Below, piece after piece: positions 7,469 to 13,593 of a stretch of 39,615 bases of DNA. The DNA is taken from assembly GCA_001509375.1 (NCBI GenBank), contig LGFT01000026.1, forward strand, positions 1 to 39,615. The letters run 5' to 3'. Under the pieces are notes generated by a model, which saw only the letters and a program-made list of their open reading frames with translations, had not been told where the DNA came from and made no database searches. The DNA comes from Methanothrix harundinacea (lineage in GTDB: Archaea; Halobacteriota; Methanosarcinia; Methanotrichales; Methanotrichaceae). Position 1 is the first letter of the stretch, and every line of letters begins with the position of its first letter. A program made the position numbers and the translations under genes.

Positions 7469-7720
7469 ACCTCACCTACCCCCTGATGATAGGAAGTGGT
7501 GGACCATCTTTTGATAAAAGCCTTTCGAGATCCTGCGGTCGTTATGCTTGGCCTGGAGAGGAATAAAATTCTCCTCGAGGCCGACGGCCTTCAGGTACCT
7601 TGCGGGCCTTCTCGAAGCCCGCCATGATCCGAAGGAAGGTACGAACGTTCTCCCTAAGCATTTACTGACCGCAAAAGGCAGGGATATAAAAACTGTACAA
7701 ACTAATTCAATAAGCGTAAA
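7469..7720. other. Gene-poor left flank of the small-protein array
   Basis: This spacer between the secreted protein and the array shows no recognisable gene. A hairpin at 7602-7622 (GCGGGC - 9-base loop - GCCCGC) lies inside it. Two short open frames cross here, one on each strand, including a minus-strand 39-codon frame reading MLRENVRTFLRIMAGFEKAR. Neither has a convincing start signal or family match, and both could be decayed coding sequence. Confidence 0.4.
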
Positions 7721-7729
7721 ATTTAAATA
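7721..7729 (+). promoter_or_regulatory. TATA box for the small-protein/radical SAM operon
   Basis: AAAATTTAAATAG is a strong archaeal TATA-box match preceded by A-rich sequence. Transcription would start near 7750, about 30 bases before the first small gene. No comparably strong TATA box appears between the later small genes, so the whole array and the radical SAM gene may be one transcript. This is inference from spacing. Confidence 0.55.
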
Positions 7730-7781
7730 GTATTAAAACTAAATTCTCTTAAGAACTTCAAGTGGCCTAGAGGCTAAAAAT

Positions 7782-8075
7782 ATGGGATACTTGCGAAGGA
7801 AATACATGGCGCCTAAATATGATCCAGCTCCCGAGCTCTTCAGATCTTGGAAAGTGGCATATCCCGAACTGAGACGGGAATTGAGACGGGAAAATTTCGA
7901 ATTAATACATGATCCTACTCCAGAGCCTGCTATTTCGTCATATGTCTTGAGCCAAGAACAAATAAATGAGCTAGCTGTGATGGAGATGGATTTGCAGGTC
8001 AAGATTGCGGAAAGGGAGTTAGCAATCGCGAACAAAGCTAGAGAGATGATGAGAAAGAGTATGGAAATTAAGTGA
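7782..8075 (+). CDS. Small paralogous protein 1 (candidate radical SAM substrate)
   Basis: A 97-residue protein. The variable N-terminal half contains YMAPKYDPAPELFRSW (8-23) and a second D-P-T-P-E-P. The conserved C-terminal half (about 56-95: LSQEQINELAVMEMDLQV then IAERELAIANKAREMMRKSM) is predicted as one long amphipathic, charged helix. It has no signal peptide, no cysteine and no membrane segment. It is the first gene after the TATA box. It has fewer tryptophans than its neighbours. The family is unknown to me; the C-terminal helix could be a recognition element for the downstream enzyme, or an oligomerisation coiled coil. Confidence 0.8.
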   Translation: MGYLRRKYMAPKYDPAPELFRSWKVAYPELRRELRRENFELIHDPTPEPAISSYVLSQEQINELAVMEMDLQVKIAERELAIANKAREMMRKSMEIK

Positions 8076-8106
8076 GCAAGTTATCTATTATATGGGTGCT
8101 TGAAAT

Positions 8107-8496
8107 ATGAGAAATTTGCGAAATAGGTATTGGTGGCCTGGATACCCATTTGATCCTGCTCCACCATATCCGCCAAGCGAAGTGCCACCCTGGCCACCGG
8201 AATACGCTTATGATCCTGCCCCACCGTGGATCCCACCATGGGCAGATCCTGCTCCACCATGGTTGTTTAAACATTTGAGAGAAGGATATCCTGAACTGAT
8301 ACCTGAATTGACACCAGCTTACGCATCAAGCATGTTGGCTGATGAACCCCTCCTAGTTAGTAAATTTTTGAGCAAAGAGCAATTAAATGAGCTTGCGGTG
8401 ATGGAGATGGATTTGCAGGTTGCGATTGCGGAAAAGGAGCTCGACTTAGCGAACAAGGCGCGAGATATGATGAGAAAGAGCATGAGAACTAAATAA
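8107..8496 (+). CDS. Small paralogous protein 2 with expanded W/P/DPAP region
   Basis: A 129-residue paralogue. The N-terminal half is enlarged and very rich in proline, tryptophan and tyrosine, with three D-P-A-P-P units (encoded at about 8152, 8212 and 8245), each followed by an aromatic residue (Y or W), joined by P-P-W-P-P and P-P-W segments. After it come 'LREGYPEL' and 'SSMLADEP', shared with copies 3 and 4, and then the common C-terminal helix (LSKEQLNELAVMEMDLQV...ARDMMRKSM). The extra length lies entirely in the variable half, consistent with internal repeat expansion of a substrate-like region. It has no cysteine, signal peptide or membrane segment. Confidence 0.82.
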   Translation: MRNLRNRYWWPGYPFDPAPPYPPSEVPPWPPEYAYDPAPPWIPPWADPAPPWLFKHLREGYPELIPELTPAYASSMLADEPLLVSKFLSKEQLNELAVMEMDLQVAIAEKELDLANKARDMMRKSMRTK

Positions 8497-8527
8497 GAAA
8501 GTTAAACATGTTGTGGAGGCTTGAAAT

Positions 8528-8812
8528 ATGAGATATTTGCGATGGAATCCGGGATATCCAGTCGATCCCGCACCCTGGTTCTATAGACGTTTGAGAGAAA
8601 TGTATCCTGAACTGGCATATGAATCGAAACGAGATTACACTTCGAACATGTTGGCCGATGATCCCATTCCACTTGTGAAGCTCTTGAGCCAAGAGCAAAT
8701 GAAGGAGCTTGCGGCGATGGAGATGGATTTGCAGGTCGAGATTGCGGAAAAGGAGCTCGCATTAGCAAACAAGGCGAGAGAGATGATGCGAAAGAGTATG
8801 AGAACTAAGTAA
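8528..8812 (+). CDS. Small paralogous protein 3
   Basis: A 94-residue paralogue. The N-terminal half reads MRYLRWNPGYPVDPAPWFY followed by RRLREMYPEL. It has one DPAP motif flanked by aromatic residues and the 'PGYP' shared with copy 2. The middle has 'SNMLADDPIP'. The C-terminal helix LSQEQMKELAAMEMDLQV ... ANKAREMMRKSM is nearly identical to the other copies. It starts at an ATG 6 bases after GGAGGCTTGAAAT-type leader sequence. No cysteine, no signal peptide. Function unknown; see the array and the radical SAM entry for the proposed role. Confidence 0.82.
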   Translation: MRYLRWNPGYPVDPAPWFYRRLREMYPELAYESKRDYTSNMLADDPIPLVKLLSQEQMKELAAMEMDLQVEIAEKELALANKAREMMRKSMRTK

Positions 8813-8844
8813 GAAAAATTATACGTGCTGTGGGGGCTTGAAAT

Positions 8845-9144
8845 ATGGAAAATTTGCGGTATTTGCTTAATTGGCGATGGCCTCCGGGATACCAAGGTGA
8901 TCCTGCTCCATTGTACTATAGACGTTGGAGAGAAATATATCCTGAACTGGCATATGAATCGACACCAGTTTACTCTTCAAGCATGTTGGCCGATGATCCC
9001 GTGCCAATTATCAACTTCTTGAGCCAAGAGCAAATAAACGAGCTAGCTGCGATGGAGATGGATTTGCAGGTTGCGATTGCGGAAAAGGAGTTAGCAATCG
9101 CAAACAAGGCTAGAGAAATGATGAGAAAGAGTATGGGAGTTTAA
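8845..9144 (+). CDS. Small paralogous protein 4
   Basis: A 99-residue paralogue. The N-terminal half contains NWRWPPGYQGDPAPLYY (9-25), then RRWREIYPEL and 'SSSMLADDPVP'. The C-terminal helix (LSQEQINELAAMEMDLQV ... ANKAREMMRKSM) is again almost unchanged, ending MGV. It is the closest relative of the decayed copy just downstream, which shares even its LLN-x-RW and DPA codons. No cysteine or export signal. Function unknown. Confidence 0.82.
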   Translation: MENLRYLLNWRWPPGYQGDPAPLYYRRWREIYPELAYESTPVYSSSMLADDPVPIINFLSQEQINELAAMEMDLQVAIAEKELAIANKAREMMRKSMGV

Positions 9145-9177
9145 GTAAGAAATTGTACATGATATGGAGGCCTGAAA

Positions 9178-9366
9178 TGTAGTAAATTAGCGATATTTGC
9201 TTAATTTGCGATGGCCGCCGAGATCCTAAAGTGATCCTGCCCATTGTACTAATAGACGTTGGAGGTATATGTATATATATATATCTATATCTATATCTAT
9301 CCTGAACTGGCATATGAATCGACACCAGCTAGAGAAATGATTAGTAAGAGTATGGTAACTAAGTAA
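9178..9366 (+). pseudogene. Decayed fifth copy of the small-protein gene
   Basis: Aligned to copy 4, this segment keeps the leader (GGAGGCCTGAAAT), 'CGATATTTGCTTAATT', 'GATCCTGC' and 'CCTGAACTGGCATATGAATC'. The start ATG is changed to GTA, a TAG replaces the fourth codon, and TAA appears before the DPAP codons. A TA/TCTATA microsatellite interrupts the middle. About 140-150 bases are deleted between 'GACACCAG' and 'CTAGAGAAATGAT', removing most of the conserved helix. It cannot encode the protein. Confidence 0.85.
9266..9300 (+). repeat. TA / TATATC simple repeat
   Basis: A 35-base low-complexity tract of TATATG(TA)n followed by three TATATC-like units sits inside the decayed copy. It probably grew by slippage after the copy lost function. 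Confidence 0.8.
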
Positions 9367-9393
9367 ATTAAATCTGGCGAGGGGTTGGAAATT

Positions 9394-9636
9394 TTGAGCA
9401 AAGGAGAAACCTTGCGGAAAAGAGGTCGTTATGGTGATTTTGTAATAGATCTACCTTTAAGTTATAAGCCTGGTGAACCAGCTTCAGATTTTTCAGATTT
9501 CTGGAAACGCTATGATAAGAACTTCCAAAAGCTTATTGCAATAGAAGAGATAGATTTACGGGTTAAATTCTTGGAAGATCGACTTGAGATCCTAAAAAAA
9601 GTTCGAGATCAAACAAAAAAGAGGTTTGAGGTCTAA
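9394..9636 (+). CDS. Diverged small paralogue directly before the radical SAM gene
   Basis: An 80-residue protein. I choose the TTG at 9394, since it falls at the same place relative to the leader as the array ATGs ('GGGGTTGGAAATT' against 'GGAGGCTTGAAAT'); another TTG lies 9 bases upstream. The C-terminal helix follows the same pattern as the array proteins: 'QKLIAIEEIDLRVKFLEDRL' against 'NELAAMEMDLQVAIAEKEL', then K-x-R-D/E-x-x-x-K. The N-terminal half lacks DPAP but has 'DLPLSYKPGEP' and aromatic residues. It may be a diverged member or an accessory with a related helix. It ends 27 bases before the radical SAM gene. Confidence 0.65.
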   Translation: MSKGETLRKRGRYGDFVIDLPLSYKPGEPASDFSDFWKRYDKNFQKLIAIEEIDLRVKFLEDRLEILKKVRDQTKKRFEV

Positions 9637-9663
9637 TAACGTTGCCCATTTAAGTGAATTAAT

Positions 9664-11235
9664 ATGATTCAAACTAAATCTAATTGTGATGTGCTTCTTG
9701 TCGGCTATGAAGACGAGGAGAATTTGGGGCTACGTTCGATGGCATCCTTCCTTGTCGAAAAAGGCATAGATGTAGAAATTTTGCCCTGCCAGAATGTTTC
9801 CAAGGAGGGAATCCTGAAACAAATTAATAAAAGAAATCCAAAAATTATAGGGTTTTCACTCATATTCCAGAGGATGATCTTCGATTTTGCCGAACTAATC
9901 GATTATCTACGAAATAACGGGGTAAAGTCCCATTTCACCATTGGGGGGCATTTTCCGACTCTGGAATATGAAAAAATCCTGGAACTCCTGCCAGGATTGG
10001 ATACAGTCGTTCGCCATGAGGGGGAGTTAACGCTTCTGGACCTGTACAGACATTTGAAAAGTCAAAGCCAATGGTCGGAAATAAGAGGAATTGCCTATCG
10101 GAGAAATGGTGCTATAGAAGTAACTTCTCCGAGACCTCTTATCCAAGACCTGAATTCCTTGCCCTTTCCGGTCAGAGAAGATAAAATGAGAGATCACAGA
10201 GGAGTCGGAGTATGCTCGATTTTGGCTAGTCGTGGTTGTTATTATGACTGTAGTTTCTGTAGTGTACAAGAGTTCTATAGTGGTGCACCCGGCCCCAGGA
10301 GAAGATCGCGCTCCCCTTCAAATGTTGTGAAGGAGATGGAACAGTTATTTGAACGAGGTGCTCGGATCTTCATCTTCAAGGATGATGACTTTAGCATGAA
10401 AAGCCGTACTCAGCAGAGATGGATAGATGAATTTTCCTATCTTTTGAAGGAAAGCGGTCTAGCTGATCAGATTTTATGGCGTATTTCATGTCGTGTAGAT
10501 GAAGTAGATAGAAATATGCTGAATAAATTGAAGACGGTTGGTCTAGATTTTCTCTATCTAGGCATCGAGTCAGGGTGTGAACAGGGATTAAAGACGTGCA
10601 ACAAGCATTATGGAGTAGAGGATATATATAAAACCTTAGATATTATCGAAAGCAGTAGAATCAACTTTGAATATGGATTTATGTTCTTTGATCCTGACAC
10701 CGATCTTGGTTCTGTCAAAGATAATATATCATTTTTTGAGACGCTCTGCAAGGACGGTAGAGTGGTTGTTCACTTCACTAAAATGTTCCCCTATGTCGGC
10801 ACCCAGATAGCTCATAAACTGAGAGCGGAAGGTAGGTTAGAAGGGTCTATTGATTCCCCAGATTATAGATATAAAGATGCTCGAATTGATCTTCTTGAGG
10901 CTTTTTTCACAGATGCCTTCCATAAAATGCTCTTTGAGCCAGAAGGGCTGGTTAATAAGCTCCAATATGCTAAATTTGATTCGGTGATATTAAATAAATT
11001 TTTTTCAGATATTTATGATGCTAAAAATTACATGAAATCGGTTAGTCACTTGACCAAGGTGAGCAATGAATCAATTTTAGAAACCATGAGATTGGCGGCC
11101 GATTTCATAGACGATCACGACCATGTCGGAATTATAAAAAATTGGTACATGCTAAAAGAGCTAGCGGAGCAAGAGCGTTATGTTCAAGATGTTATAGGAT
11201 CGGAAGTAGATAAATTAATTAAAATTTATAATTAA
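9664..11235 (+). CDS. Cobalamin-binding radical SAM enzyme
   Basis: A 523-residue enzyme. Residues ~8-130 form a B12-binding-type domain (VLLVGYEDEENLGLRSMASF, 'IIGFSLIFQRM', 'FTIGGHFPTLEYEKIL', 'LDTVVRHEGELTLLDL'); the G-G-H-F-P-T and E-G-E motifs are usual for this class, which binds cobalamin without a lower-axial histidine. Residues ~180-390 are the radical SAM core with the 4Fe-4S motif CYYDCSFC (192-199, CX3CX2C) and 'YLGIESG'. The C-terminal ~130 residues are helical and of unknown role. Relatives often methylate unactivated carbons, or perform rearrangements, on peptides and secondary metabolites. It follows the small-protein array in the same orientation and shares the AT-rich composition, so those proteins are the obvious candidate substrates. 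No separate peptide-recognition (RRE) domain is visible. Confidence 0.9.
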   Translation: MIQTKSNCDVLLVGYEDEENLGLRSMASFLVEKGIDVEILPCQNVSKEGILKQINKRNPKIIGFSLIFQRMIFDFAELIDYLRNNGVKSHFTIGGHFPTLEYEKILELLPGLDTVVRHEGELTLLDLYRHLKSQSQWSEIRGIAYRRNGAIEVTSPRPLIQDLNSLPFPVREDKMRDHRGVGVCSILASRGCYYDCSFCSVQEFYSGAPGPRRRSRSPSNVVKEMEQLFERGARIFIFKDDDFSMKSRTQQRWIDEFSYLLKESGLADQILWRISCRVDEVDRNMLNKLKTVGLDFLYLGIESGCEQGLKTCNKHYGVEDIYKTLDIIESSRINFEYGFMFFDPDTDLGSVKDNISFFETLCKDGRVVVHFTKMFPYVGTQIAHKLRAEGRLEGSIDSPDYRYKDARIDLLEAFFTDAFHKMLFEPEGLVNKLQYAKFDSVILNKFFSDIYDAKNYMKSVSHLTKVSNESILETMRLAADFIDDHDHVGIIKNWYMLKELAEQERYVQDVIGSEVDKLIKIYN

Positions 11236-11495
11236 GTTGTTTAGATTTACTGAATACCTTGCGGATTTTGTTGGAGGATGCGTCGCCACAATCGGGCGTA
11301 TAGAATTCTTACGAATATTGAGTGAGGTGTGTGTCACATGTTTAACTAGATAAATATTTAAATTAGTTATTTTATTTAATTTCGCGCAGAAAAATGAGCC
11401 ATCTAGCCTCCCTTGTCCCCCAACTCACCAGTAGTGAAGCGGTCAACCTTTCGCCTGCGAGCCCGCCTGCTCCTTCCAGGTGGCGAGCGCTGACC
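11236..11495. other. AT-rich right border of the island
   Basis: No supported gene. A strong TATA-like tract (AAATATTTAAATTAG, about 11353-11367) lies 27-41 bases before an ATG at 11394, but the 67-codon frame there has no recognisable product and runs antisense into the ferredoxin gene. Base composition returns to GC-rich near 11395. Confidence 0.5.
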
Positions 11496-12284
11496 TCACC
11501 CCTGGACCTCCCCGTCGATCCCGAGAATGAGGCTTCTGACCGGCGCCTCCTTTCCCGCCACCTTCAGTGCCTGCCGGACGAAGGCCTCCAGGTTTGAGCA
11601 GCAGGGGACCTCCATCTCCAGGACGGTGATATCCTCGACGTCGTGGGCGGCGAGGATCGCGGCGAGCCGCTCGACGAAGCTCTCCCTCTCGTCGAGCTTC
11701 GGGCAGCCGATGAGGGTCGTCCTCCCCCGGATGAAGTCTCTGTGGACTGTCGGAGAGGCGAAGGCAGTGCAGTCTCCTGCAATTAAAAGGCGCGCGCCGT
11801 CGAACTGAGGAGAGTCGACGGTGGCGAGCCGCATCTGGACCGGCCAGTTGGAGAGCTCCGGCTGGCTGGCGGTTGCCGCCGGCCCCGAATCCTGGGCACG
11901 GCTCCGCCTTCCGGCGAGCTTCGTGGAGCCGAGCCTTCCCGCCCCCGTCCCCCTCAGGGCCATTGGGCAGCCGCCCTCCCCCACCCTCGGACCGTCCTCG
12001 CATCCCATCCCATGCCATGGCAAGGTCGTCTCTTGGGCCGATTCGACCGCCGCCTTCGCCGCCAGCTCATCGAACTCCTCCGCCTCCCGCTCCTCCATCG
12101 AGAGGGCGCCCGTTGGGCAGTTGCCGATGCAGGCCCCCAGGCCGTCGCAGAAACTCTCCCGGACGACCTTCGCCTTTCCGCCGACGATCTCGATGGCATT
12201 CTCAGGACAGGCGAGGACGCAGTTTCCGCACCCGTCGCAGAGGGCCTCGTCGATCTTTATGATCTTCCTTATGACCACCTTCAT
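11496..12284 (-). CDS. 2x[4Fe-4S] ferredoxin-domain protein with C-terminal cysteine domain
   Basis: A 262-residue iron-sulfur protein. Residues ~10-65 hold two cluster motifs: CDGCGNCVLACPENAI (16-31) and CDGLGACIGNCPTGAL (45-60). The middle (~80-150) is low-complexity and Gly/Ala-rich. The C-terminal part carries more conserved-looking cysteines: 'GDCTAFAS', 'IGCPKLDERE', 'PCCSNLEAFV', suggesting an additional metal or redox site. Methanogens carry similar stand-alone proteins, but a precise partner is not known. It lies downstream of nifB on the same strand, with a remnant gene between, so supplying electrons to NifB is possible but not shown. A TATA-like GTATATAC near 12338-12345 precedes it, so it is probably transcribed separately. 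Confidence 0.8.
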   Translation of the reverse strand: MKVVIRKIIKIDEALCDGCGNCVLACPENAIEIVGGKAKVVRESFCDGLGACIGNCPTGALSMEEREAEEFDELAAKAAVESAQETTLPWHGMGCEDGPRVGEGGCPMALRGTGAGRLGSTKLAGRRSRAQDSGPAATASQPELSNWPVQMRLATVDSPQFDGARLLIAGDCTAFASPTVHRDFIRGRTTLIGCPKLDERESFVERLAAILAAHDVEDITVLEMEVPCCSNLEAFVRQALKVAGKEAPVRSLILGIDGEVQG

Positions 12285-12588: not shown

Positions 12589-13485
12589 CTACTCAGACTT
12601 CTCGAACTCCTGCTGGACGTCGTGACCGAGCCTTCCGATGGCGTCGGACCTGCACTGCCTGCAGTGCCTCATCTGCCTCATGACCGTGGAGAGCTCGTCC
12701 TGAACCTTCTTCTTCTCCGCCGGGGTCGGGGGGGTGAGGTGTGAGAACCGATACTGAGGGATGAGGGGCATCACGTTCTGGATGTAGACCCCCAGCTTCC
12801 TGATCGTCTTCGCGATCTCCATCACGTGGTCGTCGTTGATGGTAGGGATGAGGACGGTGTTCACCTTGACGATCATCTTCCTCTTGACCGCCTCCTCAAG
12901 GCCCCTCAGCTGGTGGTCGAGGAGGATCTCCGCAGCCTCCAGGCCGGTGTACTTCTTCCCCTCGTAGGTGACGTACTCGTAGATCTCCTTTCCGATCTTC
13001 GGGTCGACGGCGTTCAGGGTCACGGTGACATTGCTGATCCCAAGGTCGTCGAGCCGGTCGATCTCGTCGGGGAGGAGAAGGCCATTGGTGCTGATGCAGA
13101 GGATGACCTTGGGGTACTTCTCTCCCACCAGCCTGAAGGTCTCGAAGGTCGCCTTATTGAAGAGGGGCTCGCCGGGACCTGCCACCGCCACCACCTTGAT
13201 GTAGTGGATCTTCTCCATCACCTCGTCGACCCGCTGGAGAGCCTCGGTGGGGGTGAGAACCTGGCTTGTGACCCCGGGCCTGCACTCGTTGACGCAGTCG
13301 AAGTCCCGGATGCAGTAGTTGCACTGGATGTTGCACCTCGGAGCGACGGCGAGGTGCATCCTGCCGAAGCGGTGGCAGGCCTTCTCGCTGAAACAGGGGT
13401 GCTCCTGGATCCTCCTCAGCTGCTCGGGGTCCCAGGGAACTTCCCGGTCGCCGACCTTGGCAGTGGGATAGGCATTCTCGCTCAT
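12589..13485 (-). CDS. nifB: NifB, radical SAM enzyme of nitrogenase cofactor synthesis
   Basis: A 298-residue protein that, in its family, fuses two 4Fe-4S clusters and inserts a carbide to make NifB-co, the precursor of the nitrogenase FeMo-cofactor. Key features: 'HPCFSEKACHRFGRMHL' (29-45), the radical SAM motif CNIQCNYC (51-58), 'RDFDCVNECRPGVTSQ', 'AGPGEPL', and the C-terminal 'HCRQCRSDAIGRL'. It lacks the NifX-like domain, as usual for archaeal NifB. I prefer ATG 13485 with GGAG nine bases upstream over the GTG two codons earlier, which is only three bases from that site. No nifHDK genes are in the window, so this is a stand-alone locus. Confidence 0.95.
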   Translation of the reverse strand: MSENAYPTAKVGDREVPWDPEQLRRIQEHPCFSEKACHRFGRMHLAVAPRCNIQCNYCIRDFDCVNECRPGVTSQVLTPTEALQRVDEVMEKIHYIKVVAVAGPGEPLFNKATFETFRLVGEKYPKVILCISTNGLLLPDEIDRLDDLGISNVTVTLNAVDPKIGKEIYEYVTYEGKKYTGLEAAEILLDHQLRGLEEAVKRKMIVKVNTVLIPTINDDHVMEIAKTIRKLGVYIQNVMPLIPQYRFSHLTPPTPAEKKKVQDELSTVMRQMRHCRQCRSDAIGRLGHDVQQEFEKSE

Positions 13486-13593
13486 GATCACTTACTCCAA
13501 GAGACCTTTCGTCATTTCTTCTCTAAAAGGATATCCCAAATCGATTGGGTCTGGCCAAAAATCTTATCCGGCAGGGAGGCTTGGGTTTCTGCC

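Follow-up and report, generated by a model that had tools for sequence, protein, structure and literature searches.

A 39,615-nucleotide stretch of Methanothrix harundinacea DNA, which we call the window, carries a locus that is probably a transferable cassette. It would encode a class B (cobalamin) radical SAM enzyme together with its dedicated substrates, small proteins that the enzyme recognises by a C-terminal helix and modifies at a short motif of an acidic residue followed by proline.

An array of small paralogues leads into the enzyme gene

ORF calls and reading of the sequence bore out the array described in an earlier note on this DNA, in which four intact small genes, one decayed copy and one diverged copy precede a gene for a B12-binding radical SAM enzyme. 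All lie on the forward strand. Upstream of the array direct reading of the sequence gave a TATA-like box, TTTAAATA, at 7722..7729, which is the putative promoter. The intact ORFs encode proteins of 97, 129, 94 and 99 residues with only 31-32 nt between neighbours, and a GGAGGCTTGAAATATG-like region comprising the ribosome site and start is repeated across these copies.

Paralogue 1 (7782..8075; 97 aa), assigned by ORF, homology and motif, has YDPAPELF and EPAI sites plus the C-terminal helix. Paralogue 2 (8107..8496; 129 aa) has three DPAPP motifs in an N-terminal part rich in W, Y and P, with the helix following; a motif count of three was matched by none of 2000 shuffles of the sequence. Paralogue 3 (8528..8812; 94 aa), for which ORF and motif evidence was joined by an AlphaFold model, has VDPAPW and DDPIP sites, and paralogue 4 (8845..9144; 99 aa), assigned by ORF and motif, has GDPAPL and DDPVP sites; both end in the helix.

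The decayed copy is a pseudogene at about 9177..9366 that aligned best with paralogue 4. Its start has changed from ATG to ATGTAG, which places a stop after the start codon, and it has frameshifts, an insertion of a TATATCTATATC-type short repeat and a helix that is mostly gone. The short repeat occupies window positions 9262-9300, and this run might serve the fifth copy and the enzyme gene as an internal TATA box.

That last small gene, paralogue 5 (9394..9636; about 80 aa), was found by ORF and alignment. The mechanical ORF call begins at the TTG at 9385, but the TTG at 9394 is the more likely start because its ribosome site aligned with those of the other copies. The earlier note had set this copy apart as diverged, yet it still bears the motif in a GEPAS version (GEPASDF), and its helix is retained. 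The idea that it is unrelated to the array was rejected, as the ribosome site, the helix and the GEPAS site all align with the other copies. The small proteins belong to no family in Pfam, NCBIfam or PADLOC.

The C-terminal helix is held by selection and the adjoining segment is not

Alignment of the small proteins showed that the near-invariant C-terminal helix claimed in the earlier note is real; it is the conserved half of each protein, and the N-terminal part carries the repeated motif. In the AlphaFold model of paralogue 3 the helix spans residues 55-92 with a block-mean pLDDT of about 92-95 over most of its length, and the N-terminal half is mostly of low confidence. Over the 38 helix codons of the four intact paralogues dN was 0.04-0.12 and dS 0.38-0.81, giving dN/dS values of 0.11-0.24 and hence purifying selection. 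For the 36 codons that precede the helix in copies 2-4, dN was 0.20-0.35 and dS 0.09-0.40, so that dN/dS was 0.8-2.2 and the segment is unconstrained. These values rest on just 36-38 codons and thus on small numbers. Within the array the helix is held and the remainder is free or diversifying, an organisation of conserved recognition segment and separate, more variable core like that of RiPP precursors.

The enzyme is a class B radical SAM protein outside the curated families

The putative modifying enzyme (9664..11235; 523 aa) was assigned by Pfam, NCBIfam, fold and tree. It has a B12-binding domain (PF02310, E=2e-19) and a Radical_SAM domain (PF04055, E=9e-17), both above cut-off, and its CxxxCxxC cluster motif reads CYYDCSFC. 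Class B enzymes are marked by this order of domains, B12-binding at the N-terminus and then radical SAM with CxxxCxxC. Compared with the NCBIfam B12 radical SAM families (ApyD, BchE, HpnR, MgmA and rSAM_ocin_1), the protein scored far below every curated cut-off. Its top match was the RiPP enzyme ApyD, at 125 bits against a cut-off of 750, and it scored 83 bits against TIGR04014, for which the cut-off is 360. The best fold matches were OxsB, TsrM, MgmA and CysS, a class some of whose members modify peptides or proteins, which may count in favour of a peptide substrate. The small protein and the enzyme of Methanoperedens were joined into one chain for modelling; the AlphaFold model, which bears on fold only, has the class B radical SAM fold (pLDDT 77.8) with the small helix predicted less confidently.

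Enzyme and small gene recur as a pair

A genome scan gave close enzyme homologues of 48-55% identity in Methanoperedens, Methanoregula, Methanosaeta, Geobacter and a Bacteroidota, and a more distant homologue (34%) in a Bacteroidales; the Bacteroidales locus (L017/L029) was left out of the pairing analysis, its contig ending upstream of the enzyme. In each of the first five homologous loci (L012-L016) the enzyme gene is immediately preceded by one small gene, 71-80 codons long and in the same orientation, for example ...YPFWWRFADPAPDFLKHLKEEEIRVIIAHQ... in Geobacter and ...FPWPDPGDPVPPWIMRLLDEKQIRIIAQRALDLQ... in the Bacteroidota. Seven later loci, namely one archaeal locus (L021), one of the Geobacter phylum (L033) and five of Chlorobia (L039-L043), all have a motif-bearing small gene such as IWDPVPDWIKFDEQRLHEFGQLQIQAKLKELEL. 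Hence every close homologue with upstream DNA has a small gene of 66-111 aa directly upstream, as expected of a short precursor gene adjoining its modifying enzyme in RiPP systems. The C-terminal helix is common to the encoded proteins, as is a [DE]-P-[AVG]-x motif with flanking W or Y; the motif was recognised initially in the window and L012-L016 and was then present in 7 of 7 later loci.

Among 98 Chlorobia genomes, enzyme and small protein occur in the identical five, for which we calculate a chance probability of about 1.5e-8, and no small homologue lacking the enzyme was found in 50 genomes of the family. The earlier note had proposed asking whether the helix co-occurs with this radical SAM family; the two were paired in every intact case found, with no orphan small genes in the genomes searched. 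The note had also spoken of a role in a methanogen. The system is not specific to methanogens, as it occurs in bacteria and other non-methanogen hosts, and a link to methanogenesis was rejected on this ground.

The conserved helix and short motif of the small protein might also suit a carrier or scaffold on which a small-molecule moiety is built and then released, in the manner of the pearlins, with the enzyme performing one tailoring step. Carrier-peptide pathways of this kind are in the literature (PMC9303977), but no second biosynthetic enzyme consistently adjoins the pair and the motif is internal rather than C-terminal, so we regard this route as very improbable.

Related enzymes adjoin larger proteins with repeated motifs

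Enzymes of a sister clade scored about 275-305 bits, and their neighbours are quite different, larger proteins unrelated to the small proteins. Three of these neighbours, each encoded next to the gene of a related B12 radical SAM enzyme, contain repeats of EPAH: a 247-residue protein with four copies (L022:2348-3091), a 275-residue protein with five (L034:332-1159, reverse strand) and a 342-residue protein with seven (L050:2063-3091, reverse strand). Their hosts are archaea and members of the Geobacter phylum, and the L022 and L034 proteins belong to no Pfam or NCBIfam family. A fourth protein, of 169 residues with a hydrophobic N-terminal half, has three DPVH motifs and is encoded downstream of its enzyme (L023:3165-3674). 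That enzyme has C-x4-C-x2-C in place of CxxxCxxC and for this reason may be a diverged form or the product of misassembly. Maximum-likelihood analysis separated the 18 enzymes of the two groups from eight remoter B12 radical SAM enzymes, with support of 99/98 for the split. None of nine control loci (L008, L009, L010, L030, L032 and L035-L038) has a motif-bearing neighbour on the strand of the enzyme. The extension of the motif to EPAH and DPVH was recognised after the fact. The whole clade might, quite tentatively, define a new class of proteins of archaea and bacteria modified at an acidic-Pro motif ([DE]-P-[AV]-[P/H]) by a new side-chain chemistry. Its branches would differ in target: helix-follower mini-proteins (DPxP) for one, larger multi-repeat proteins (EPAH) for another and a membrane-anchored repeat protein (DPVH) for a third.

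These repeats bear on a second role for the small protein, that of a partner subunit or activator that docks by its helix onto an enzyme acting on a small molecule, a lipid or another protein. The strict one-to-one pairing and tight spacing seen in most genomes fit a subunit equally well, and the nearest named families include the small-molecule enzymes BchE and HpnR. A subunit would not be expected to exist as several divergent paralogues plus a pseudogene in the window, to have multiple motif copies per protein (three DPAPP, four to seven EPAH, three DPVH), or to have unconstrained sequence beside its conserved helix, and we consider this role unlikely.

The motif itself could be thought a mere structural helix cap or part of a proline-rich linker, the adjacency of the genes then reflecting a mobile cassette lacking functional coupling. 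[DE]P immediately ahead of a helix commonly acts as its N-cap, DP being frequent in this role, and at the helix-proximal site of most members [DE]P stands before the helix; an N-cap role could explain part of the conservation there. However, in paralogue 2 and in the EPAH and DPVH proteins the motif also lies away from any predicted helix start, and the perfect co-occurrence of enzyme and small protein in Chlorobia stands against the absence of coupling. Of all the readings we give this one the least credence.

The cassette lies in a low-GC island and has probably been transferred

From about 7500 to 11490 the window is 38-45% GC and its flanks are about 53-68%. The right-hand neighbour gene was found in nine of nine genomes of the genus. 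In six relatives within the genus one boundary of the DNA match falls at this gene (about 11484-11498), and no array lies beside it within the 1.5 kb compared. Both the enzyme (searched at E <= 1e-30) and the small gene are absent from the other genus members. In the family as a whole a single further genome, Methanosaeta UBA204 (L016/G012), carries a close enzyme copy. In the enzyme tree archaeal and bacterial members interleave, Geobacter grouping with Methanoregula and the two Methanotrichaceae lying apart, which points to horizontal transfer. Collections of plasmids and phages gave radical SAM relatives at only 24-31% among the best matches, and IMG/VR gave one weak match (L019). The L019 contig has about six ORFs of over 330 aa, each with CxxxCxxC, and probably contains a run of radical SAM genes. 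Near the island in the window, at 12589-13491 on the reverse strand, is a radical SAM gene that looks NifB-like by sequence and is called Radical_SAM by Pfam.

Proposed mechanism

As we picture the cassette, the enzyme would bind the small protein by its amphipathic C-terminal helix, the follower, and would modify residues within or next to [DE]-P-[AVG]-[P/H/N/D], a motif of the N-terminal part that mostly has W or Y beside it, with one modification per motif copy. In the methanogen the substrate gene would have been duplicated into an array in which the recognition helix was kept as the remainder diverged; extra motif copies and extra gene copies would add sites and products.

Methylation is the commonest reaction of B12 radical SAM enzymes. 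Our guess at the chemistry puts C-methylation first; the next candidates are a crosslink and other kinds of C-H functionalisation. Among the nearest named families are enzymes that do not methylate. Ring formation, ring contraction and thioether formation are known within the class as well (PMC13331322), and PbsB forms a peptide C-C crosslink (PMC12257519). The fourth position of the motif takes several residues (P, H, N, D, S, I or L), which leaves more than one candidate for the modified atom. No dedicated protease, transporter or RRE was evident in the window or among the neighbouring ORFs of homologous loci, which were inspected by eye with partial library scans. Therefore, the product may act intact or be trimmed by housekeeping proteases.

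If this picture is correct, the cassettes would constitute an undescribed family of enzyme-modified small proteins in methanogens, methane oxidisers, green sulfur bacteria and Geobacter-like bacteria, and a clear case of C-terminal-helix recognition with several natural substrates per enzyme. The motif would allow further members to be found by sequence, and the minimal enzyme/substrate pair would suit co-expression with a mass spectrometry read-out.

Comparison with known systems

In the literature we found no description of the motif or of the pairing; our search covered few subscription papers and preprints, so an earlier description is possible. OxsB, TsrM, CysS and TokK share the class B layout of an N-terminal B12 Rossmann domain followed by a radical SAM barrel, but they act on small molecules and are 15-20% identical to the window enzyme. 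MgmA, a fold match, and Mmp10 are archaeal cobalamin radical SAM enzymes that do act on protein. Their target is methyl-coenzyme M reductase, whereas the likely target in the cassette is a dedicated neighbouring small protein.

The earlier note knew of no described family with an N-terminal core and a C-terminal follower. That order has a precedent in bottromycin (BtmD/BotA), in which beta-carbons are methylated by radical SAM methyltransferases encoded nearby (PMC5103208). The likeness lies in the core-then-follower order and the nearby radical SAM enzyme. The YcaO, amidohydrolase, P450 and protease partners of bottromycin are not present in the cassette, and inspection of ORFs by eye in the window and homologous loci gave no YcaO, P450 or follower-removing hydrolase beside the pair. 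The cassette also differs in its [DE]P-x-[PH] motif, in a follower that is a long helix and in its hosts, which are archaea, Chlorobia and Geobacter-type bacteria rather than Streptomyces.

Biphenomycin-type clusters (PbsA/PbsB) resemble the window in that an array of precursor genes leads straight into a B12 radical SAM gene and a short motif is conserved (PMC12257519). Unlike the two-gene cassette, they need an MNIO, an RRE protein, an arginase and a protease, and their motif is FHAFRF. Neither bottromycin nor biphenomycin has the motif, the helix, the minimal two-gene make-up or the host range of the cassette.
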